From: Erysipelotrichaceae bacterium
Lineage (GTDB): Bacteria; Bacillota_I; Bacilli_A; Erysipelotrichales; Erysipelotrichaceae
NCBI GenBank assembly: GCA_017432545.1
Contig: JAFRJA010000131.1
Coordinates: 1-37,322, forward strand
Length of the DNA: 37,322 bases
Direction: 5' to 3'
Shown here: positions 2,715-23,643 of the stretch, piece after piece
How positions within the stretch are numbered: position 1 is the stretch's first letter
Layout: each line of letters starts with the position of its first letter
Notes under the pieces: generated by a model
The model's database searches: none
The model's input: only the letters and a program-made list of their open reading frames with translations
What the model was told of the DNA's origin: nothing
Made by a program: the position numbers and the translations under genes

Positions 2715-4377
2715 AACATGCTGCCTGCGCACTTGAGTAGTCTCCTTTGTTGTTTCCTTCTGCGTCATAGGTTTCCACAAAATCTTCATAGCTGTGGAGC
2801 TCGACATTGCTTTCGCTGGCTGCCAGTTCCTGAGCCTGCTGATCGGTGTAAAGATTTCCATACTGGTCTACATATGTATAAACCGGACCTGCCGGTCTGT
2901 TTGGTTTGCTGGCTGTATTTCCGGAGGAGCTTTCTTTCGGTTTTGCTTTTACCGTTACTTCAAACTCCTGCCGGTATTCGTTGCCGTTGTCCTGAATGAC
3001 AACAGCTGCCGGATATGTTCCGGACTCCTCAAAATTTACTGCACCTGTATCGATCGAGTATGTGCGGTTCTCGCGGGAACTTGAATACGCATATTCCCCG
3101 AAGACAGGATCGATGACTGCCTGGACATTTGCTCTGATCGCTGTCTCATCCGCCCCTTCGATCTCAATCGAGGAAGCGTTCAGCCTTACTTCAGGCTGCT
3201 TCGTATCCTGGATGCTTATCGTAAAGCCCTGAGAATTGACGGCCGTCTGACCATACTGATCTGCTTTGGACATTGTTATCGTTACATCCTGAAGACCGCA
3301 GCTTCCGGTATCGATCTGTGATATCTCGATAAGAGCCCCTTCCGGGACGCTGATGAAATAATTCTTCAGCTGATCTGGTATATTCTGAAGTTCTGCGACG
3401 CTGTTGTCTGAATATGTCAGAGCGTCTCCTGCTTCAATGACCGGAACTTCGATATCAGGATTGCTTTCAAACAGGAGCTTAGATCTGAGTTCATCCAGCG
3501 ATTTCGCTTTTCTGGATGCATCGTATCTTCTCCAGCCGATGAACCCGCCCACCGCCAGTAAAGCCAGCAGCAGGATAATGATGAACCATTTCAGCCAGCC
3601 AAGACCCGAGCTTTCATCCTCTTCGTTGTCTTCAGGGATGACCAGGTTTCTTTCCGGCTCCTTTTTTTGCGGATGTTTCTTCAGCCAGGCATCATGGATC
3701 CTGTTCCATTCTTCGTCACTGAAATCATAATCTTCCTTTTTCGGTTCTTCATTGAGGCTGGAGATCTTCAAAAGGCTGTTTTCAAATTCCAGTTTCTGCA
3801 TCCGGGCTTCTCTTTCTGCATCCTCTATGACTGTTTCTGTTTTCTTCGCTTCTTCATCTTCCTTAACGTTTTCTTTTTCTGCAGTTTTTTCTTCCACAGG
3901 AATCATTTCGCTTTCCCGCGGAGCGTCCTTCTTTTTTTCTTCCGGCTGCATCTGCTGTGCCGGGGTCTGCTGAAATAACTCTTCGGGTTTTCTTTCTGCC
4001 CTTTCCAGCGGCAGTTCCTCTACAGGTTGCTTATCCGGCAGTTCTTCCGGGAGATCAAGGTTATCCCATATCTTCTGCAGATCTTCACTCATGCTTTCTT
4101 CTTCAGATTCAGTTTCGCTTACCTTTTCCTGATCTTCAAGCAATACAGACTTCTCTTCTTTCGGCTTGACAGCTTCACTTCTTTCTTTTCTTTTTTTCAG
4201 TTCATTCCTGACACTTTGAATATTGCTTTCAGGAATGTTTATCACGTTGTCTGCGCACAGCTGAAGCAGACTTTCCAGATCTTTGTTCGACACTTCCTGC
4301 AGCCTGACTTTTTTCTGGTTAAGCTGCATTATGAGTCCCCTGATCCTTTCAATTGTATTCTGCATGTTTTCTTCCAT
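2671..4377 (-). CDS. Single-pass membrane protein, charged cytoplasmic region and extracellular beta domains
   Basis: The start ATG 4377 (about 568 residues) follows AGGAAATTG and overlaps the IscB stop as TGATG. The first ~70 residues are predicted helical. Residues ~70-250 are very rich in Glu/Lys. One transmembrane helix (WFIIILLLALLAVGGFIGW) lies near residue 270. The outside part has Ig-like beta segments with the DUF5011-like pattern (DVTITMSKAD, GTYPAAVVIQDNGN) and ends in a small Cys-containing module. It has the same architecture as the 289-residue protein at 5951-6820, with which it probably formed one operon before the IscB insertion. Function unknown; it could be a signalling or scaffold protein linking cytoplasm to cell surface. 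Confidence 0.7.
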   Translation of the reverse strand: MEENMQNTIERIRGLIMQLNQKKVRLQEVSNKDLESLLQLCADNVINIPESNIQSVRNELKKRKERSEAVKPKEEKSVLLEDQEKVSETESEEESMSEDLQKIWDNLDLPEELPDKQPVEELPLERAERKPEELFQQTPAQQMQPEEKKKDAPRESEMIPVEEKTAEKENVKEDEEAKKTETVIEDAEREARMQKLEFENSLLKISSLNEEPKKEDYDFSDEEWNRIHDAWLKKHPQKKEPERNLVIPEDNEEDESSGLGWLKWFIIILLLALLAVGGFIGWRRYDASRKAKSLDELRSKLLFESNPDIEVPVIEAGDALTYSDNSVAELQNIPDQLKNYFISVPEGALIEISQIDTGSCGLQDVTITMSKADQYGQTAVNSQGFTISIQDTKQPEVRLNASSIEIEGADETAIRANVQAVIDPVFGEYAYSSSRENRTYSIDTGAVNFEESGTYPAAVVIQDNGNEYRQEFEVTVKAKPKESSSGNTASKPNRPAGPVYTYVDQYGNLYTDQQAQELAASESNVELHSYEDFVETYDAEGNNKGDYSSAQAACYATSGTWDGRNCNY

Positions 4378-5675
4378 CAATTTCCTGCCGTGGGTACCCC
4401 TGGTTTTAGCCATGGGGAGGAAACGGCCCTCCTTTCTGTAATGTACCCGTGCTGTGAGCACAACCTCTTGATTTTTGAAGGTACGATTTCTAGCGAATCT
4501 CCTTCAAGAGTTTTTAATATGAACGAACCCTTAAGGCGTCTTCCGTGAATATACCACTCTTTGCTTTTGGCTGTTACTTTATCAAACAGTCCGAACCCCT
4601 TTACAAGATATGAAGCTTGGTTATTCTTACGAATACCGCCCTTGTTGATTTTAAACCTGTGGATTTGTCTGTTGTGACAACGTAGTTTCTTCTGATAATA
4701 GATCGTGCCATCACTAACTGCGTTTGGATTGCCGCTGATGCATCTTGCGTCAATGTAATGTTCTTTAGACAAACCTGCTTCAATACGAGAGTTCTTGGTC
4801 TTATAGCCGTAGGTAAGTTCTACATTCGGATATAAGGCTTTAAGCCTGTTATAGATTTCCCAACGCATAATACCCATAAACGACGCATCATTAAACTTCA
4901 TACTGCGTTTAATGTTGACGGGAAGTTTAACAGCTCCGCTGTGATAACCGGCATGGCAAGTCTCACATAGAGTGATCAGATTGTTAGGACTGTCACCTCC
5001 TGTTTTACGGCTTTCAATATGGTGCACATTCAATACCGGATCTTTTGACTTTCCTTTACAACATTGACAAGTATGTCCGTCTCTGAATAAGACATACTCT
5101 CTTGTATTCCAGAAGGCGAACTGCTCGCCTTGCTGGTAATCAGTGCTTCGCGGTAACTGATCACCTTCAAGAGTTGCCTTCAAGAGTTGAGTATCAAAGC
5201 TTGCGACTTCGATAATAACTTTTGAAATAGGTAATATCCTGTGTGCATCTTCTATCACTTTTAGATGACAATCGATCTTTTGTCTGATACTTGGTGCCAA
5301 CCAACCTTCTTTTTTGGAAGAGATCCTGTTATCAGAGCGTGATGCTCTGTAACGTGTCTTTCGGTTTCGCCTTGCACTACGGGCTTCACGTCTTGTAGAA
5401 ATCAACTCTACAATGTCGTTACGTAGTTCAACATCGGCTTCGTACAAGACCCTGTCTTCAGTTGTTGCGCTGAGACCGATGTGCTTTGAGCCTGAATCTA
5501 CGCCAAGCGTAATATCTTGTACAACAGCTGTTTCGGGCTCATATAACAGCTGTATGGTGAACGGACAGCGTCTTATTACTTTGGCTTTCTTGTTTTTAAG
5601 AAACCTTCTTACTTTGCCGGAACGTGATGTCGGCATAAGCGGCTGTCCGTTACTGTTTAGTACGTATGTCAACAT
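4377..5675 (-). CDS. iscB: IscB: omega-RNA-guided RuvC/HNH nuclease
   Basis: 432 residues, normal for IscB. The domains are in order. The N-terminal PLMP-type region (LMPTSRSGKVRRFL) comes first. RuvC-I GVDSGSKHIG has catalytic Asp60. An Arg-rich bridge helix spans ~95-113. RuvC-II IIEVASF has Glu156. The HNH domain (~197-246) has CQCC, NVHH (His218/219) and CETCH. RuvC-III HYIDAR has Asp309. All catalytic positions look intact. The C-terminal SSPWLKPG stretch is encoded by the right-end hairpin, as in other IS200/IS605-superfamily accessory genes. No TnpA transposase is present, so this is a solo copy that depends on help in trans for movement. It lies in the middle of an envelope operon, and its stop codon overlaps the next start. 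Confidence 0.93.
   Translation of the reverse strand: MLTYVLNSNGQPLMPTSRSGKVRRFLKNKKAKVIRRCPFTIQLLYEPETAVVQDITLGVDSGSKHIGLSATTEDRVLYEADVELRNDIVELISTRREARSARRNRKTRYRASRSDNRISSKKEGWLAPSIRQKIDCHLKVIEDAHRILPISKVIIEVASFDTQLLKATLEGDQLPRSTDYQQGEQFAFWNTREYVLFRDGHTCQCCKGKSKDPVLNVHHIESRKTGGDSPNNLITLCETCHAGYHSGAVKLPVNIKRSMKFNDASFMGIMRWEIYNRLKALYPNVELTYGYKTKNSRIEAGLSKEHYIDARCISGNPNAVSDGTIYYQKKLRCHNRQIHRFKINKGGIRKNNQASYLVKGFGLFDKVTAKSKEWYIHGRRLKGSFILKTLEGDSLEIVPSKIKRLCSQHGYITERRAVSSPWLKPGVPTAGN
4394..4416 (-). repeat. Right-end hairpin of the IscB element
   Basis: CCCC-TGGTTTTAGCCAT-GGGG is the subterminal hairpin typical of IS200/IS605-like right ends. It is embedded in the iscB 3' coding sequence. A near-identical hairpin occurs alone at 23768-23790. 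Confidence 0.65.
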
Positions 5676-5940
5676 AACATTCCTTTCTACACACTTTTAG
5701 TGCTGTAAGCCGGTTGTGTGTTACCGTAGGATACCTTCGCCAATGTTTGAAAGAGTTTAATTTGCACATCACTATTCCCACCCCTGAGAACTGTTTAAAC
5801 ACGCAACGTAGAGCAGAGGATTAGGTATAACGTCCTCCGGTACCTATATAATTTCAATCAAACGTAGTGCTCGAAGCACTCAGGCTAGTCAACAAGGGCT
5901 TTCGCAAGCCCCCGTCTTTAGACGTGGGGTGATTGACTTA
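5676..5940 (-). ncRNA. Omega-RNA (HEARO-type) and left end of the IscB element
   Basis: The 250-bp segment between the upstream gene and iscB has no reading frame and is strongly structured. Examples are CCCC-acgtctaaagac-GGGG (the left-end hairpin), GGGCTTGCGAAAGCCC, and GTGCTTCGAGCAC. IscB uses an RNA encoded directly upstream, with the 5' guide taken from the sequence flanking the left end. Here that flank is the stretch at about 5935-5955, which contains the old ribosome binding site of the neighbouring operon. The exact RNA ends were not determined. Confidence 0.78.
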
Positions 5941-7826: not shown

Positions 7827-9041
7827 CTATTTTCCGACAAAGGATTTGTACTTCTTTTCCGTCATTTCGGTTCTGATCGCATTATAGAATTCAAGCGCTA
7901 CACCGACCGCAATGATGATTCCGGTTCCACCGAGTGAGAGATTATATCCAGTGATCCTGCTGACAAGATACGGGAGCAAAGCGATAAGTGCCAGAAGCAC
8001 TGATCCCAGACAGGTTATCGAATTGAGTATCCTACTGATGTATCTTTCCGTCTCTTTGCCCGGCCTGATGCCCGGAACATAGGCTTTTTCCTTGGCCAGA
8101 TTGCGAGCAACTTTTTTGGGGTCGATCTGGACATTTGCATAAAAGAAGGCAAATGCGATTATCAGCAGCGCGTATATCAGCAGCATGTACCAGGCATTCA
8201 TGCTTAATGCTTTGTTCATTTTCCTGTAGATATCATAATTTATCCATGACATGATTATCTGAGGGGCCTGAATCAGAGCTGACGCGAAGATGACGGGCAT
8301 TACCGATGCCGAGTTGATCTTCAACGGCAGATGCGTGAAATTGCCTTTAGTCGTGTTCATGGCTCTTGAATACTGAATCGGGATCCTTCTTTCCGCTTCC
8401 TGGACAATTATGACTGCAATAATGACAAAAAGATATGCGGCTGTAAAAGCAATAAACATCTTTATATCAAGCGCATTGTATGCGCTGTAGAACGAGTATG
8501 GAATTCCGGATACGATCCCGGCAAAAATTATCATTGACATACCGCTTCCGATCCCCCATTTGTCTATGATCATTCCCAGTCCGTAGGTGATCATTGCACC
8601 GATCGTCAGTATGGCGGCGATGAACAGATATGATCTGGTACCGGGGTTGGTAACATAATCGCTGAGGCTTCGGGCAAGAAAATATCCCTGAAAGACGGAC
8701 AGTACGGATCCGAAGCAGAAGGTGATGTATTCGATCTTCTTCTGCCCCTTACGGCCGTCTTCCCTCAGCTGAACCAGAAAGGGTATGACATCAGCAGAAC
8801 TAAGCAGCGATATAACGATGCTTGCACTGAGGTATGGCCCGATCCCCAGCGAGAAGAGCGACATCTGTTCGATTGCTCCTCCCCCGATCAGATTGAGCAT
8901 GCTCAGAAAGGAACTGCCCAGTATATCGATCACATCTCCGTTGAAACCGGGCGCTCTGATATTCTTTCCTATAATATATAGAAGCATGACCCCTGTCGTG
9001 ACCAGCAGCTTATTCCTGATTTTTCTGTTTTTCAGAAACAT
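7827..9041 (-). CDS. secY: SecY, protein-conducting channel
   Basis: 404 residues (housekeeping SecY is ~430), about ten membrane helices. Diagnostic segments are GIGPYLSASIVISLLS, GIGSGMSMIIFAGI, EAERRIPIQYSRA, LPLKINSASVMPVIFAS, ANVQIDPKKVARNL with YVPGIRPGKET, and GGTGIIIAVGVALE. The plug and cytosolic loops appear retained and the C-terminal tail is short. It starts with a TAATG overlap on the upstream gene and is followed by secE. A second Sec channel on a plasmid is unusual. Accessory SecY2 normally travels with SecA2 and a glycosylated serine-rich adhesin, none of which is seen here. The likely clients are the many signal-peptide proteins of this element (inference). Confidence 0.95.
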   Translation of the reverse strand: MFLKNRKIRNKLLVTTGVMLLYIIGKNIRAPGFNGDVIDILGSSFLSMLNLIGGGAIEQMSLFSLGIGPYLSASIVISLLSSADVIPFLVQLREDGRKGQKKIEYITFCFGSVLSVFQGYFLARSLSDYVTNPGTRSYLFIAAILTIGAMITYGLGMIIDKWGIGSGMSMIIFAGIVSGIPYSFYSAYNALDIKMFIAFTAAYLFVIIAVIIVQEAERRIPIQYSRAMNTTKGNFTHLPLKINSASVMPVIFASALIQAPQIIMSWINYDIYRKMNKALSMNAWYMLLIYALLIIAFAFFYANVQIDPKKVARNLAKEKAYVPGIRPGKETERYISRILNSITCLGSVLLALIALLPYLVSRITGYNLSLGGTGIIIAVGVALEFYNAIRTEMTEKKYKSFVGK

Positions 9042-20204: not shown

Positions 20205-20451
20205 GTTTATTTTCGTTCTTCCAGTCTCTGATGATGTGTTTGACGATCCACCAGTAAGATCGCGGCAAATGATGGGTAAACCATTCGCCAAGCCAATCGA
20301 CCGAAATGGCATATACCTCCTCGGCGTTTTCCAGACTCTCAAGTACAGTTTCGACTCCAAAAACAAAATGTTCATCGCCGTTCTCTTTATCGTAATTTTC
20401 GGAATTAATAGGGAACTCTTTAGCGAACTTTTCCGCATCAACCAATTTCAT
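20164..20451 (-). CDS. Hypothetical 95-residue acidic protein
   Basis: ATG 20451 follows CAGGAGCAAAAAA. The protein is acidic, with a motif typical of small accessory proteins (LVDAEKFAKEF, then VETVLESLENAEEVYAI) and a Trp/His-rich second half (DWLGEWFTHHLPRSYWW). Its 3' end overlaps the DUF2493 gene, so one frame may be spurious at the overlap, but both have ribosome binding sites. It follows tRNA-Gly directly. Confidence 0.6.
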   Translation of the reverse strand: MKLVDAEKFAKEFPINSENYDKENGDEHFVFGVETVLESLENAEEVYAISVDWLGEWFTHHLPRSYWWIVKHIIRDWKNENKHEKSNNCGNKIFQ

Positions 20452-20511
20452 TTTTTTGCTCCTGTTTTCTAAAACCTGTCAGGTTTTTCTCCTTTTACAA
20501 TAATTCGATAA

Positions 20512-20585
20512 TGGAGCGGATAGTCGGATTTGAACCGGCATCTTCTGCTTGGAAGGCAGAGGTCCTACCCTTGAATGATATCCGC
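20512..20585 (-). tRNA. tRNA-Gly (anticodon TCC), CCA encoded
   Basis: The acceptor GCGGATA/TATCCGC is fully paired. The anticodon arm is TCTGC-CTTCCAA-GCAGA. The T loop is TTCAAAT with one C-A mismatch in the T stem, followed by encoded T-CCA. Sequence similarity to ordinary bacterial tRNA-Gly is good. It reads GGA codons. Confidence 0.93.
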
Positions 20586-20589
20586 ATTT

Positions 20590-21098
20590 TGGTCGAAACG
20601 GCAGGGCTTGCGCCTGCAGGCAAGTTATTCCATGCAGATGGTTTACGGCAAATCATCATACGATATTGCGCCAGCCCGAACAGGAGTCGAACCTGTCCGG
20701 TTGCCGAATCGAACGAACGCTTCACGTATAAAACGGACCGTCCGCACCGTTGCCAACGATGCACTTTCTATTACCTTGACCCTGCCTTTCAGGGTACGGC
20801 TGGATATTACCGATGTACGTCTCGTTTGTTTTTTAATCAGACTTAACGCATCTGATCCTGTGTAATTGCGACGGACTTGCACTGCAGGTTTTTGAGCTGA
20901 TTGCTCCGGGTCCCCCTGTCTGCTTCAGGGATCTCTCCGATTAACCCGTGATATATCTGAATCGGTCTTCAATGCAGCGAAGCAGAAGCTGCTTTGAACA
21001 GCCGATAGCATTCAATGGCGACCCGACGGTTGCATTTTAATAGAGAATATATTGCGCCGAGTCTGATTTTTCAGGTACTCCATAAGCGGAGTATATAA
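20590..21098 (-). ncRNA. Structured RNA A between two tRNA genes (large ornate-type candidate)
   Basis: The ~510 bases between tRNA-Thr and tRNA-Gly encode no credible protein but are full of pairing. A three-tier hairpin lies at 20961-21006 (ATCGG/CCGAT, TTCAA/TTGAA, GCAGC/GCTGC). Others are TACTCC/GGAGTA (21076-21093), CCCTG/CAGGG (20914-20930), ACCCTG/CAGGGT (20779-20795), GCAGG/CCTGC (20601-20617) and a perfect T-arm mimic, ACAGG-TTCGACT-CCTGT (20680-20696). The domain 20671-20803 closes with CCAGCC/GGCTGG. No complete cloverleaf can be built. Large RNAs of the ROOL/GOLLD kind often lie beside tRNAs on phages and plasmids. Assignment to such a class is inference. Confidence 0.6.
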
Positions 21099-21102
21099 TG
21101 AT

Positions 21103-21175
21103 GCTTCCCGAGGGACTCGAACCTCTGATATGGTCGCTTACAAGGCGACTGCCGTTGCCACTGAGCCAGGGAAGC
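21103..21175 (-). tRNA. tRNA-Thr (anticodon TGT)
   Basis: The acceptor GCTTCCC/GGGAAGC is perfect. The anticodon arm is GTCGC-CTTGTAA-GCGAC. The D arm has three pairs. The T arm GAGG-TTCGAGT-CC(C)TC needs a bulge, so it is slightly irregular. CCA is not encoded. It starts ~20 nt after a strong promoter. Confidence 0.88.
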
Positions 21176-21192
21176 GGGTTGTCTATATTTCT

Positions 21193-21221
21193 ATTATAAT
21201 CATATGGTGCCAAGGTGGCAA
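21193..21221 (-). promoter_or_regulatory. Promoter of the tRNA-Thr / RNA A / tRNA-Gly unit
   Basis: Minus strand: -35 TTGCCA (21216-21221), 17 bp, -10 TATAAT (21193-21198). The GGCACC/GGTGCC hexamer (21206-21211) sits in the spacer. It is one of the strongest promoters in the window by consensus. Confidence 0.75.
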
Positions 21222-21242
21222 GCCGTTTTTTCCATTTTCTGC

Positions 21243-21281
21243 AAAAAAAACAGGGGACGAAGTTTTTTACGCCTCGTCCCC
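21243..21281 (-). terminator. Strong intrinsic terminator after structured RNA B
   Basis: GGGGACGA pairs with TCGTCCCC (21253-21260 with 21274-21281), followed on the minus strand by TG and eight Ts. Confidence 0.88.
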
Positions 21282-21284
21282 GGT

Positions 21285-21905
21285 CTGAATCATTTTCTGA
21301 TCCTGAATGCACCATTTCACTTTCACCCTTAGGGAGGCTACTGCGCTTCCTGATGCACTGATCCGTTTACAGTGGACCATCTGTTGGAATATAAACTGCT
21401 TTTATGCATGATCATATTCTAATCGACTGTTCCAGACTGATTTTCGTCAAGTCTGGCTGTTTATCCTCCGGATGCCGGATCCGGGAGCCGTCTTTCTTGA
21501 CGACATTCGTTTTCGGCTGTTTGAGCCTCGCCGGGATCAAATAATCTGATCTGACGAATGGATGGCACTTGTGCATCGTGCCGCTCTTCTTGGACGCCGG
21601 TTCCCCAAGGACAGTTGCACCACTTCCCTGGCGGATGGATATTACGACGTGTTGTAAACCCTATGGCTTGAAGATGCGCGGCTTGTCGCTTCATCTGACC
21701 GGTTTTACGGCTTGACTGGCGATGGTTCCCGACATCTGCAAGTAAAAATATAGTTTCAGCCTTTAACGGAGCAGCCCGAGCCCTGTATAGGACCGTCAGA
21801 ACGTCTCACGCACAGTTTTCTGTTAAACCGCCGGAACGTACAGCCGATGAACGTTTCTCAGCCCCTTTTTTGGAAAGGGCGGGGGATACGTACAACCTGA
21901 TTTAT
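21285..21905 (-). ncRNA. Structured RNA B downstream of infA
   Basis: About 620 bases without a credible gene lie between infA and the terminator. Hairpins on the minus strand include CACTG/CAGTG (21356-21374), CCAGACT/AGTCTGG (21432-21456), CCGGAT/ATCCGG (21468-21484), GGCAC/GTGCC (21564-21582), a long-range ACGAATG/CATTCGT pair enclosing GATCA/TGATC, AACGT/ACGTT (21835-21855), and GCCC-TTT/AAA-GGGC (21861-21880). This is consistent with a second large folded RNA or a long structured 3' region of the infA transcript. Confidence 0.55.
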
Positions 21906-21920
21906 GCCTAAGATCGGGTA

Positions 21921-22160
21921 TCAGCTTCTGGTATGAACATGGCTGTCTTTCTTCCTATAGACAATCCGGCCTTTTGTAAGGTCATACGGGGACAGCTCTA
22001 CTACGACTCTGTCATTCATGAGAAGGCGAATATTTCCGGTCACGATTTTGCCGGACGCATAAGCCCTCACAACAATGCCGTTATCAAGCTTAACTTCAAA
22101 CTGTCTGCTGGGATGAATATCAACGATGACGCCATCCACTTTTACCAAATCTTTTGACAT
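21921..22160 (-). CDS. infA: Translation initiation factor IF-1
   Basis: 79 residues, a single OB (S1-like) domain. KVDGVIVDIHPSRQFEVKLD matches the IF-1 N-terminal strands. ASGKIVTGNIRLLMNDRVVV and the signature VELSPYDLTKGRIVYRKK are diagnostic. IF-1 binds the 30S A site with IF-2 and IF-3. A plasmid copy is unusual because the chromosome should carry an essential infA. No Shine-Dalgarno precedes ATG 22160; TATTGT lies 7 nt upstream, compatible with a leaderless transcript. It sits between two large structured RNA regions. Confidence 0.93.
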   Translation of the reverse strand: MSKDLVKVDGVIVDIHPSRQFEVKLDNGIVVRAYASGKIVTGNIRLLMNDRVVVELSPYDLTKGRIVYRKKDSHVHTRS

Positions 22161-22177
22161 TTAACTGACAATATTTT

Positions 22178-22197
22178 CTGGGCACCTGGGTGCCCAG
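22178..22197 (-). repeat. TGGGCACC inverted repeat, copy 3
   Basis: On the minus strand it reads CTGGGCACC-CA-GGTGCCCAG, ending 17 bp before the infA start. The centre is in infA orientation. Confidence 0.85.
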
Positions 22198-22199
22198 GA

Positions 22200-22877
22200 T
22201 TATTTAGGAATTGTTCTCTCAATTCAAATGACTTAGACTGTTTCCAGATACCTTCTACAATTTACTCGTGATTTTGCCAACGACGAGTACCTGCCGTTCC
22301 CAGGGGAGCTACCCTCAGGTACAGATACCCAAATCAAACCTCGAAGGACTGATTCCTAAGATCGTACAGGGCTGATACCTGCAATGAGACCCGTGATACG
22401 GAGATCCTTAAACGAATTAGTAGTGTTTGTTCTGTATCACTAGAAATATTTATGCCATTTATGGTCTTTGAGCCTCATACCACGCGCGCAACGTTATACA
22501 CCGGTTTCCCGGCTTCACGACCGTAACCTTGTTTCGCATACCTGGGTTTTCCTGATTTGCGGGATCAGGACTCTCCCGGCTTATTCCCACAGGGCGTCTA
22601 TTGCGATTACCGTTGCTGTGTGCATTCACGACCGATCATATTAGTGCCACATCTTAGTGTTTTTACGCTTGGCATGCCTTTGCCTCGTCTCCGGCTGTTA
22701 CCAGTCAGAAGAAAGTAGGGGATATAACGTATCCGTCATACCCGTCATCTCCAACTGTCCGATGTGCCCCGGAACATCTCACACGATGTCTTTACACCGG
22801 GTTCTAAATCATAAGAATTCAAAGAACAATTTCCGTACCATTGTCAATCAGGCAAATGTCATCTTAACAATGGGTGT
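22200..22877 (-). ncRNA. Structured RNA C (~650 nt), large ornate-type candidate
   Basis: The segment has no credible gene and is closed by a terminal helix: GGAAATTGTTCT (22823-22834) pairs with AGAACAATTCC (22207-22217) with one bulge, continuing to AATTC/GAATT. Internal hairpins are CCCGG/CCGGG stacked on ACATC/GATGT (22766-22803), TCCTGAT/ATCAGGA (22550-22570), CCGG-GAAA-CCGG with a GNRA loop (22501-22512), GTGATAC/GTATCAC (22393-22440), GTACCTG/CAGGTAC (22287-22322) and ACTCG/CGAGT (22264-22288). It has its own promoter (22884-22912). The size, tRNA neighbourhood and RepA_N plasmid setting resemble ROOL-type RNAs. The class is not proven. Confidence 0.72.
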
Positions 22878-22883
22878 ACTATT

Positions 22884-22912
22884 ACAATACTATGGCACCA
22901 AATTGTTGTCAA
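22884..22912 (-). promoter_or_regulatory. Promoter of structured RNA C
   Basis: Minus strand: -35 TTGACA (22907-22912), 17 bp with GGTGCC inside (22894-22899), -10 TATTGT (22884-22889). It is strikingly similar to the promoter at 30456-30483 (both have CAAT-TGG-T-CCAT-G-TATTGTAA). Confidence 0.65.
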
Positions 22913-22931
22913 TATTTTTTAGGAAAAATTC

Positions 22932-22951
22932 TTGGGCACCTGGGTGCCCAA
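22932..22951 (-). repeat. TGGGCACC inverted repeat, copy 4
   Basis: TTGGGCACC-CA-GGTGCCCAA on the minus strand. It lies between the promoter of RNA C (minus) and the poly-G promoter of the second lipoprotein (plus). Confidence 0.85.
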
Positions 22952-22982
22952 GATCATTCCAGAAGCTTAAAATGTCATCAGC

Positions 22983-23009
22983 TTGACAAAGCGGGGGGGG
23001 GGTTAATAT
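22983..23009 (+). promoter_or_regulatory. Second promoter with G10 spacer
   Basis: -35 TTGACA (22983-22988), a 15-bp spacer holding ten Gs (22993-23002), -10 TAATAT (23004-23009). Its spacer is one base shorter than the sister promoter at 16466-16493. Confidence 0.7.
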
Positions 23010-23019
23010 TTAACCATCA

Positions 23020-23073
23020 GAGCTCTCCCAGACACATTCTGACATGTTTTGAATGTGAAAGGAGAGCTTTAAT
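23020..23073 (+). promoter_or_regulatory. Second copy of the Shine-Dalgarno-sequestering leader
   Basis: AGCTCTCC (23021-23028) pairs with GGAGAGCT (23061-23068). Between them CACATTC/GAATGTG forms an inner stem. The same design occurs at 16503-16557. Confidence 0.65.
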
Positions 23074-23643
23074 ATGAATAGTACAATTAAAAAAATCATT
23101 TCTTCTTTTCTGGTGCTTTTACTCCTGACAGGATGCATGACTATAAGGGCCGAAGATAGTCCGGAAACCAATGATCCTGAAACGATCGAAGTTGAGCAGA
23201 TGACCGAGGATGAATCCGGAGAGGTTTTGGAAAACGGCGATTCCGAGATATATCAGGATGAAGGCAACAGCGAATTCGTCTTCGACGAAGAAATCGAGGA
23301 AAACCAGCCTCAAGGAAATGCCGAAGAAGGGCAAAGCGTTCAGGATGAGGATGTTTTGAATGAGAAAGAAACCAAAACTGATGCAGCGGACATAAATGAT
23401 ATATTGGATTATTGTGAAAATGATGTAAGAAACAAAATAGATAAAATGTTTACCAATACGGATGATTCCCAGAATGTCTATATATGGACCCGCAGTACGT
23501 TCGTAAACAGTACGGGTGGCAACAAAAACAGAGGATATGCAGTTAAAACACAGACAGACGGGGGATTCATAGGAACATATGACTGTAAGGATGAATATGA
23601 AACCAGACCTGTATTTTGGATCGACCTTGATCGGTTCGAATAA
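23074..23643 (+). CDS. Short paralogue of the DUF6273-like surface lipoprotein
   Basis: 189 residues from ATG 23074 behind GGAGAG. The signal peptide ends LLLLTGC, a good lipobox, followed by MTIRAED as in the large paralogue. An acidic spacer (~30-105) follows. The last ~70 residues (IWTRSTFVNSTGGNKNRGYA, then GGFIGTYD and TRPVFWIDL) look like the C-terminal part of a DUF6273 domain. It is much shorter than the 784-residue paralogue, so it is either a minimal version or a deletion derivative. It shares the same G10 promoter and self-pairing leader. Confidence 0.72.
   Translation: MNSTIKKIISSFLVLLLLTGCMTIRAEDSPETNDPETIEVEQMTEDESGEVLENGDSEIYQDEGNSEFVFDEEIEENQPQGNAEEGQSVQDEDVLNEKETKTDAADINDILDYCENDVRNKIDKMFTNTDDSQNVYIWTRSTFVNSTGGNKNRGYAVKTQTDGGFIGTYDCKDEYETRPVFWIDLDRFE

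Follow-up and report, generated by a model that had tools for sequence, protein, structure and literature searches.

The window analysed here is the entire 37,322-nt contig C82 of a 3.4-Mb Erysipelotrichaceae genome bin, and a binning error is possible. It encodes a RepA_N initiator and ParA/ParB-type proteins and also carries an integrase; it is a RepA_N/ParAB plasmid, which may be incomplete because the contig ends without overlap. On the minus strand lies a ROOL RNA (22218-22825; RF03087, 219.8 bits, E 1.2e-48), bracketed by two 35-nt copies of a terminator-like GGGCACCTGGGTGCCC hairpin (22170-22204 and 22924-22958) that are 83% identical. The adjoining gene encodes translation initiation factor IF-1 (21921-22160, minus strand; PF01176, 66.9 bits). 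Besides its own IF-1, the plasmid possesses a divergent SecY (7827-9041, minus strand) that shares 50-52% identity with its nearest chromosomal counterparts in the family. Elsewhere on the contig, a HEARO RNA (5726-5937, minus strand) is located directly 5' of an HNH protein gene (4377-5675, minus strand), which is the gene order expected for an IscB-type omega RNA.

Read along the minus strand, the region of interest comprises ROOL, IF-1, a structured stretch termed RNA B, a promoter, tRNA-Thr, a non-coding structured segment termed RNA A, and tRNA-Gly. RNA A (20586-21101, minus strand; RNA position p equals window position 21102-p) lies 1.1 kb downstream of ROOL, which shares its strand, and occupies exactly the 516-nt gap between two minus-strand tRNA genes, both recognised by ARAGORN and Rfam: tRNA-Thr (UGU) at 21102-21175 (39.8 bits) and tRNA-Gly (UCC) at 20512-20585 (51.6 bits). 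While tRNA-Gly encodes its CCA, tRNA-Thr ends in ...GGGAAGCA|UCAUU and does not. Just upstream of tRNA-Thr, a sigma-70-type promoter TTGCCA-17-TATAAT (21193-21221, minus strand) matches the consensus at 11 of 12 positions and is the best promoter match within 20300-23100. A previous sequence-only reading had described a structured RNA lodged between these tRNAs in a single transcription unit and bounded by tRNA ends. The gene calls place both borders at tRNA ends and the promoter backs the single unit; the observation as a whole was confirmed, while its interpretation is supported in part.

RNA B (21240-21920, minus strand), located between IF-1 and the tRNA unit, is structured too (fold z -3.40); a hairpin formed by GGGGACGA...UCGUCCCC and a run of U mark its end. 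In L065 and L055, sequence similar to a 28-nt piece of RNA B (AAAAUCAGUCUGG...) is located about 640 nt 5' of the ROOL core motif. As RNA B is structured as well, RNA A could be envisioned as half of a larger RNA that spans both and holds tRNA-Thr in a linker, as documented for GOLLD, in which tRNAs sometimes lie within the RNA, in linkers (PMC12286853). However, the strong hairpin and U run end RNA B at about 21240, a new promoter then follows at 21221-21193, and a GOLLD match is lacking, so that we regard such a joint RNA as highly improbable.

Comparison with Rfam at E ≤ 10 yielded, for RNA A, only the two flanking tRNAs and chance-level matches. Even at this cutoff neither ROOL (RF03087, threshold 99.1 bits) nor GOLLD (RF02032, threshold 150 bits) matched within 20586-21101, so membership in either family, with whose models the sequence-only reading had suggested a comparison, was not borne out. 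The internal ORFs gave no convincing protein family match; the minus-strand ORF had no phage match and the plus-strand ORF matches phages via the antisense of tRNA genes. RNA A is accordingly best regarded as non-coding, as previously assumed. By blastn, no homologue was found among phages, and plasmids returned only short chance matches of 27-41 nt. Nor did searches of 272 family genomes and 315 genomes of the order reveal any; a 33-nt extra match from these whole-genome searches was discarded, as it lies inside an apparent HAD-type phosphatase gene. Sister plasmids sought via RepA, IF-1, the SLOG protein and the next gene included no close relative with RNA A, and comparison with other inter-tRNA gaps of ROOL phages gave no match at E ≤ 1e-3. 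Since a close homologue is absent, deep covariation is absent for RNA A as well.

RNA A folds with a z of -3.58, and 0 of 100 shuffles were as stable; thus it is structured beyond chance. The opposite strand folds equally well (z -4.04), so fold energy alone cannot assign the strand, which is instead given by the tRNAs and the promoter. The individual elements described before were recovered: a three-tier 15-bp hairpin (20961-21006, minus strand; RNA 96-141, 5+5+5 bp) has a pairing probability of 0.95-1.0, and hairpins of the CCCUG/CAGGG type also occur, most clearly at RNA 307-323. The 7-mer GGCGCAA occurs three times in RNA A; it was dropped as a signal, since some 7-mer does so in 10% of shuffles.

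One global fold of RNA A consists of two closed domains of similar size, RNA 34-267 and 278-508, joined by an A-rich linker. Domain I (20835-21068, minus strand; RNA 34-267) would be closed by AAUCAGACU/AGUCUGAUU together with GGCGCA/UGCGUU at a pair probability of about 0.45, and a comparable long-range helix was found in 263 of 20,000 shuffles. Domain II (20590-20824, minus strand; RNA 278-512) would be closed by the 7-bp stem CGAGACG/CGUUUCG at a pair probability of about 0.40, with a hairpin GCAGG-CGCAAGC-CCUGC abutting the 3' strand of this stem and followed by a 3' ACCA. A competing fold, built on a long helix between RNA 214-235 and 466-489, is equally stable, the two ensembles being tied at -178.0 and -177.7 kcal/mol. 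In the modelled structures, RNA A may thus comprise two separately closed domains, possibly with a tRNA-like 3' end of its own.

Such an end raises the question whether Domain II is itself a tRNA-like or tmRNA-like RNA. In this reading, an insert of about 150-180 nt is closed by an acceptor-like 7-bp stem, a T-arm-like hairpin and the 3' ACCA, which could make Domain II a direct substrate for RNase P and CCA enzymes, while Domain I would be a separate product. The outline of Domain II (7-bp stem, 5-bp hairpin with a 7-nt NNCRANY loop, NCCA, insert of at least 75 nt) occurred in 0 of 20,000 shuffles and had 0 matches in a 2.9-Mb reversed viral control. On forward viral strands it retrieved mostly tmRNAs and long-insert tRNA-like genes, and its sole other match with a CCA in the 37-kb window is a true tRNA-Arg. 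If only the Domain I helix was forced, Domain II closed unaided and gained a 6-bp AGGUAA/UUGCCU helix beside the hairpin, as in tmRNA; furthermore, tmRNAs sit in comparable inter-tRNA gaps of ROOL phages. However, the first two loop positions of the descriptor had been loosened once the RNA A sequence was seen, and the loop CGCAAGC, which departs from UUCRANY, forms a GCAA tetraloop plus a bulged C. Models of tmRNA (RF00023, RF04321, permuted tmRNA included) gave no match at E ≤ 10, the tmRNA D-loop motif GG-N-UUCGACGGG is absent from UACAUCGGUAAUAUCC, the sequence following the putative acceptor, and no tag is recognisable. As the helix RNA 214-235/466-489 also competes with Domain II closure at equal stability, we consider a tRNA-like or tmRNA-like Domain II possible, though rather unlikely.

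The T-arm mimic reported earlier is present as well. It is a 9-bp T-loop hairpin CCGGACAGG-UUCGACU-CCUGUUCGG (20676-20700, minus strand) found in 2 of 20,000 dinucleotide shuffles, whereas 84 of 20,000 contain a T-loop hairpin of at least 5 bp; its stem is longer than a T stem. This element bears on the idea that RNA A is a decayed tRNA array, in which fragments of earlier tRNAs (T-arms and acceptors), or remains of an attachment site, persist between live tRNA genes. Two pieces of RNA A (RNA 402-428 and 485-512) resemble tRNA 3' halves, the T-arm piece is similar to the T-arms of tRNAs along 16-27 nt, and the plus-strand ORF is similar to antisense-tRNA ORFs of phages. Against this stand the 9-bp stem, which is beyond tRNA geometry, and the excess of structure over RNA A's own shuffles. 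Within the gap, ARAGORN found no tRNA and no member of RF00005 was recognised; the sole weak tRNA-type match is a tRNA-Sec at 14.7 bits (E 8.9), so that both the absence of a full cloverleaf and of a recognisable decayed array, as claimed before, hold. Nor is the T-arm piece an attachment-site copy, because its best chromosomal match has 3 mismatches in 24. Overall we judge decay of a former array to be unlikely.

Further evidence comes from the surroundings of ROOL RNAs in other mobile elements, for which 55 ROOL loci were taken from viral contigs, most of them within large tRNA arrays. By blastn of RNA A against these loci, one match went beyond a plain tRNA T-arm, namely L060 (54 nt, E 0.002). 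The common stretch extends over about 81 nt (blastn E 0.002-0.005), much of it T-arm-like. As on the RNA A plasmid, it is located 3' of a tRNA-Thr(UGU) with ROOL further upstream, and it falls into a region of about 800 nt without a recognised tRNA (fold z -5.78). What the sequences have in common is a tandem T-loop module (20640-20720, minus strand) composed of UCG-UUCGAUU-CGG, CCGGACAGG-UUCGACU-CCUGUUCGG and a UGGCGCAA-AU hairpin, which corresponds to L060:597-517 and, weakly, to L066:3884-3820. Over 83 columns, RNA A and L060 align in a UUCGAUU-loop hairpin, a CAAC linker, a UUCGACU-loop hairpin and UGGCGCAA with the third hairpin; RNAalifold predicts 15 pairs, and in 6 of them both sides have changed. 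The earlier suggestion of a T-loop module is thereby strengthened, as the hairpin turns out to be half of a tandem module that recurs in a ROOL contig with compensatory changes.

A covariance model built from these two sequences matched L066 (26.5 bits, E 0.0007) between tRNA-Asn and tRNA-Asp, on a contig that carries both ROOL and GOLLD. With L066 included, 94.9% of cells pair, slid structures fall off sharply and the double-sided change counts are reached by 1-3 of 500 shuffles, figures that pertain to an alignment fitted to the very model that found L066. The three sequences, two good and one weak, include two from the same metagenome, and T-arm-like sequence raises the background for matches to the module. 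Across their whole regions, RNA A and L060 reach a Smith-Waterman score of 71, where shuffles average 43 (sd 7); at least 1 of 300 shuffles exceeded the score of 71. The three-sequence model also gives 26-bit matches in family genomes, which were rejected as relatives since one is a real tRNA-Arg and the other lies in a coding region. Exact-motif scans of the viral and genome contigs retrieved L060 only, and a looser pattern mostly matches sequences resembling tRNA ends. The similarity of RNA A, L060 and L066 is therefore to be taken as a lead, short of an established family.

The two contigs hold further RNAs. Beside ROOL, L060 contains an 83-nt stretch that matches the entire tmRNA model as a tRNA-like domain lacking the tag region (L060:2471-2553, minus strand), as well as a near-threshold type-P1 twister ribozyme (L060:2935-2999, minus strand). 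In L066, ROOL and GOLLD are adjacent (L066:972-2417, minus strand), and weak YrlA-like and tRNA-like matches fall within the GOLLD match.

Structured gaps between tRNAs are frequent in ROOL contigs: among 49 non-redundant inter-tRNA gaps of 300-700 nt, 43% have a z below -2 and 16% a z at or below that of RNA A, some of these gaps being ROOL itself. Clear cases of structured RNAs in such positions are tmRNA and ROOL. Because such gaps are often structured, a structured RNA between the tRNAs of a mobile element is unexceptional as a class; the novelty of RNA A is that it is a structured inter-tRNA RNA without a match to any described family. Several other genes came to light in these contigs. 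Inter-tRNA gaps of ROOL phages harbour tmRNA genes (84-98 bits, Rfam) that ARAGORN did not report (L045:4103-4519, L058:1714-2134, L063:10132-10558, L074:1399-1816 and L087:777-1200). Three tRNA-like genes with inserts, 139-315 nt in length and two of them tRNA-Leu-like, are found near ROOL or in a tRNA array (L051:4435-4573; L052:1248-1562, minus strand; L095:6873-7018). In addition, a tRNA-Gly/tRNA-Lys gap of ROOL phages is very stable (L051:9255-9704, z -8.3; L047:404-889, z -4.4).

RNA A might also be no more than a transcribed spacer that is free of selection and structured by chance. This would fit the ordinary z of many phage inter-tRNA gaps, the equally good fold of the opposite strand and the lack of a homologue in the 315 genomes of the order, in phages and, short chance matches aside, in plasmids. 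However, a z of -3.58, a T-loop hairpin expected at about 1e-4, a tRNA-like 3' end seen in 0 of 20,000 shuffles and partial conservation with L060 argue against a mere spacer, a reading that we consider very unlikely.

Taken together, we favour, at an evenly balanced level of confidence, the view that RNA A is an orphan structured RNA that forms the middle part of a tRNA-Thr / RNA A / tRNA-Gly precursor, transcribed on a RepA_N plasmid from a sigma-70 promoter of its own. The basis for this view is the anatomy of the locus, the absence of a coding signal, the excess of structure, a T-loop hairpin beyond chance and the partial similarity to L060. The gap between the two tRNAs probably yields a folded RNA that is excised by the tRNA-processing machinery. 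In Firmicutes, RNase Z cuts after the discriminator base of tRNAs whose CCA is not encoded, and RNase P cuts before the tRNA 5' end. Because tRNA-Thr lacks an encoded CCA, a cut by RNase Z after its discriminator base would create the 5' end of RNA A, while RNase P would cut before tRNA-Gly at 20586/20585 and release the 3' side of a 516-nt RNA. RNA A would thereby obtain defined ends, in line with the sequence-only reading, and exonucleases might then shorten it toward the ACCA that lies four bases before its 3' end.

T-loops are docking modules in general, for tRNA elbows among others. The two tandem T-loop hairpins could accordingly mediate self-assembly of the RNA or binding to tRNA elbows, and RNA A, acting with the adjoining ROOL, IF-1 and tRNA genes, could serve in translation or in the handling of tRNAs; these are the weakest steps of the proposed mechanism. 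Since T-loops can dock tRNA elbows, and since IF-1, tRNAs and ROOL lie nearby, a role linked to tRNA or translation is the most natural guess. One might go further and speculate that RNA A belongs to a hitherto undescribed family of large RNAs from tRNA arrays, which accompany ROOL in both phages and plasmids, whose paired T-loop hairpins dock tRNA elbows or each other and whose end is a tRNA-like CCA: in effect a tRNA-handling device made of RNA alone, with its gene placed between those of the tRNAs it serves. We regard this extended scenario as decidedly unlikely. ROOL and GOLLD are large structured RNAs near tRNA islands without known function, and a further family with T-loop modules and a possible tRNA-like end would tie this setting to tRNA and translation biology and offer a testable handle. 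Such a further family would also mean that tRNA-array gaps of mobile elements hide genes that annotation skips, comparable to the real tmRNAs missed by ARAGORN.

Among known systems, ROOL (RF03087) is likewise large, structured and found in mobile elements near tRNA genes; RNA A differs in lacking a match to the ROOL model and in having tRNAs on both flanks. Another long structured RNA of a Firmicute megaplasmid, the lncRNA of Ligilactobacillus salivarius (PMC5643018), has been counted as ROOL (PMC12286853), so its counterpart here is the ROOL at 22218-22825 and not RNA A. GOLLD (RF02032) is tied to phage tRNA arrays, similar to the setting of RNA A, which has no match to this model. The tmRNA (RF00023) occupies equivalent inter-tRNA gaps of ROOL phages, and in one fold of RNA A an acceptor, a T-arm-like hairpin and a CCA 3' end would close a large insert in a tmRNA-like manner; however, RNA A shows no covariance-model match, D-loop motif, canonical T-loop or recognisable tag. 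Some functional RNAs are spacers excised from tRNA precursors, as is the case for the 3'ETS of leuZ in E. coli; these act as sponges and are short, at about 50 nt. RNA A would likewise be freed by tRNA processing, yet in contrast to these spacers it is structured and about ten times longer.
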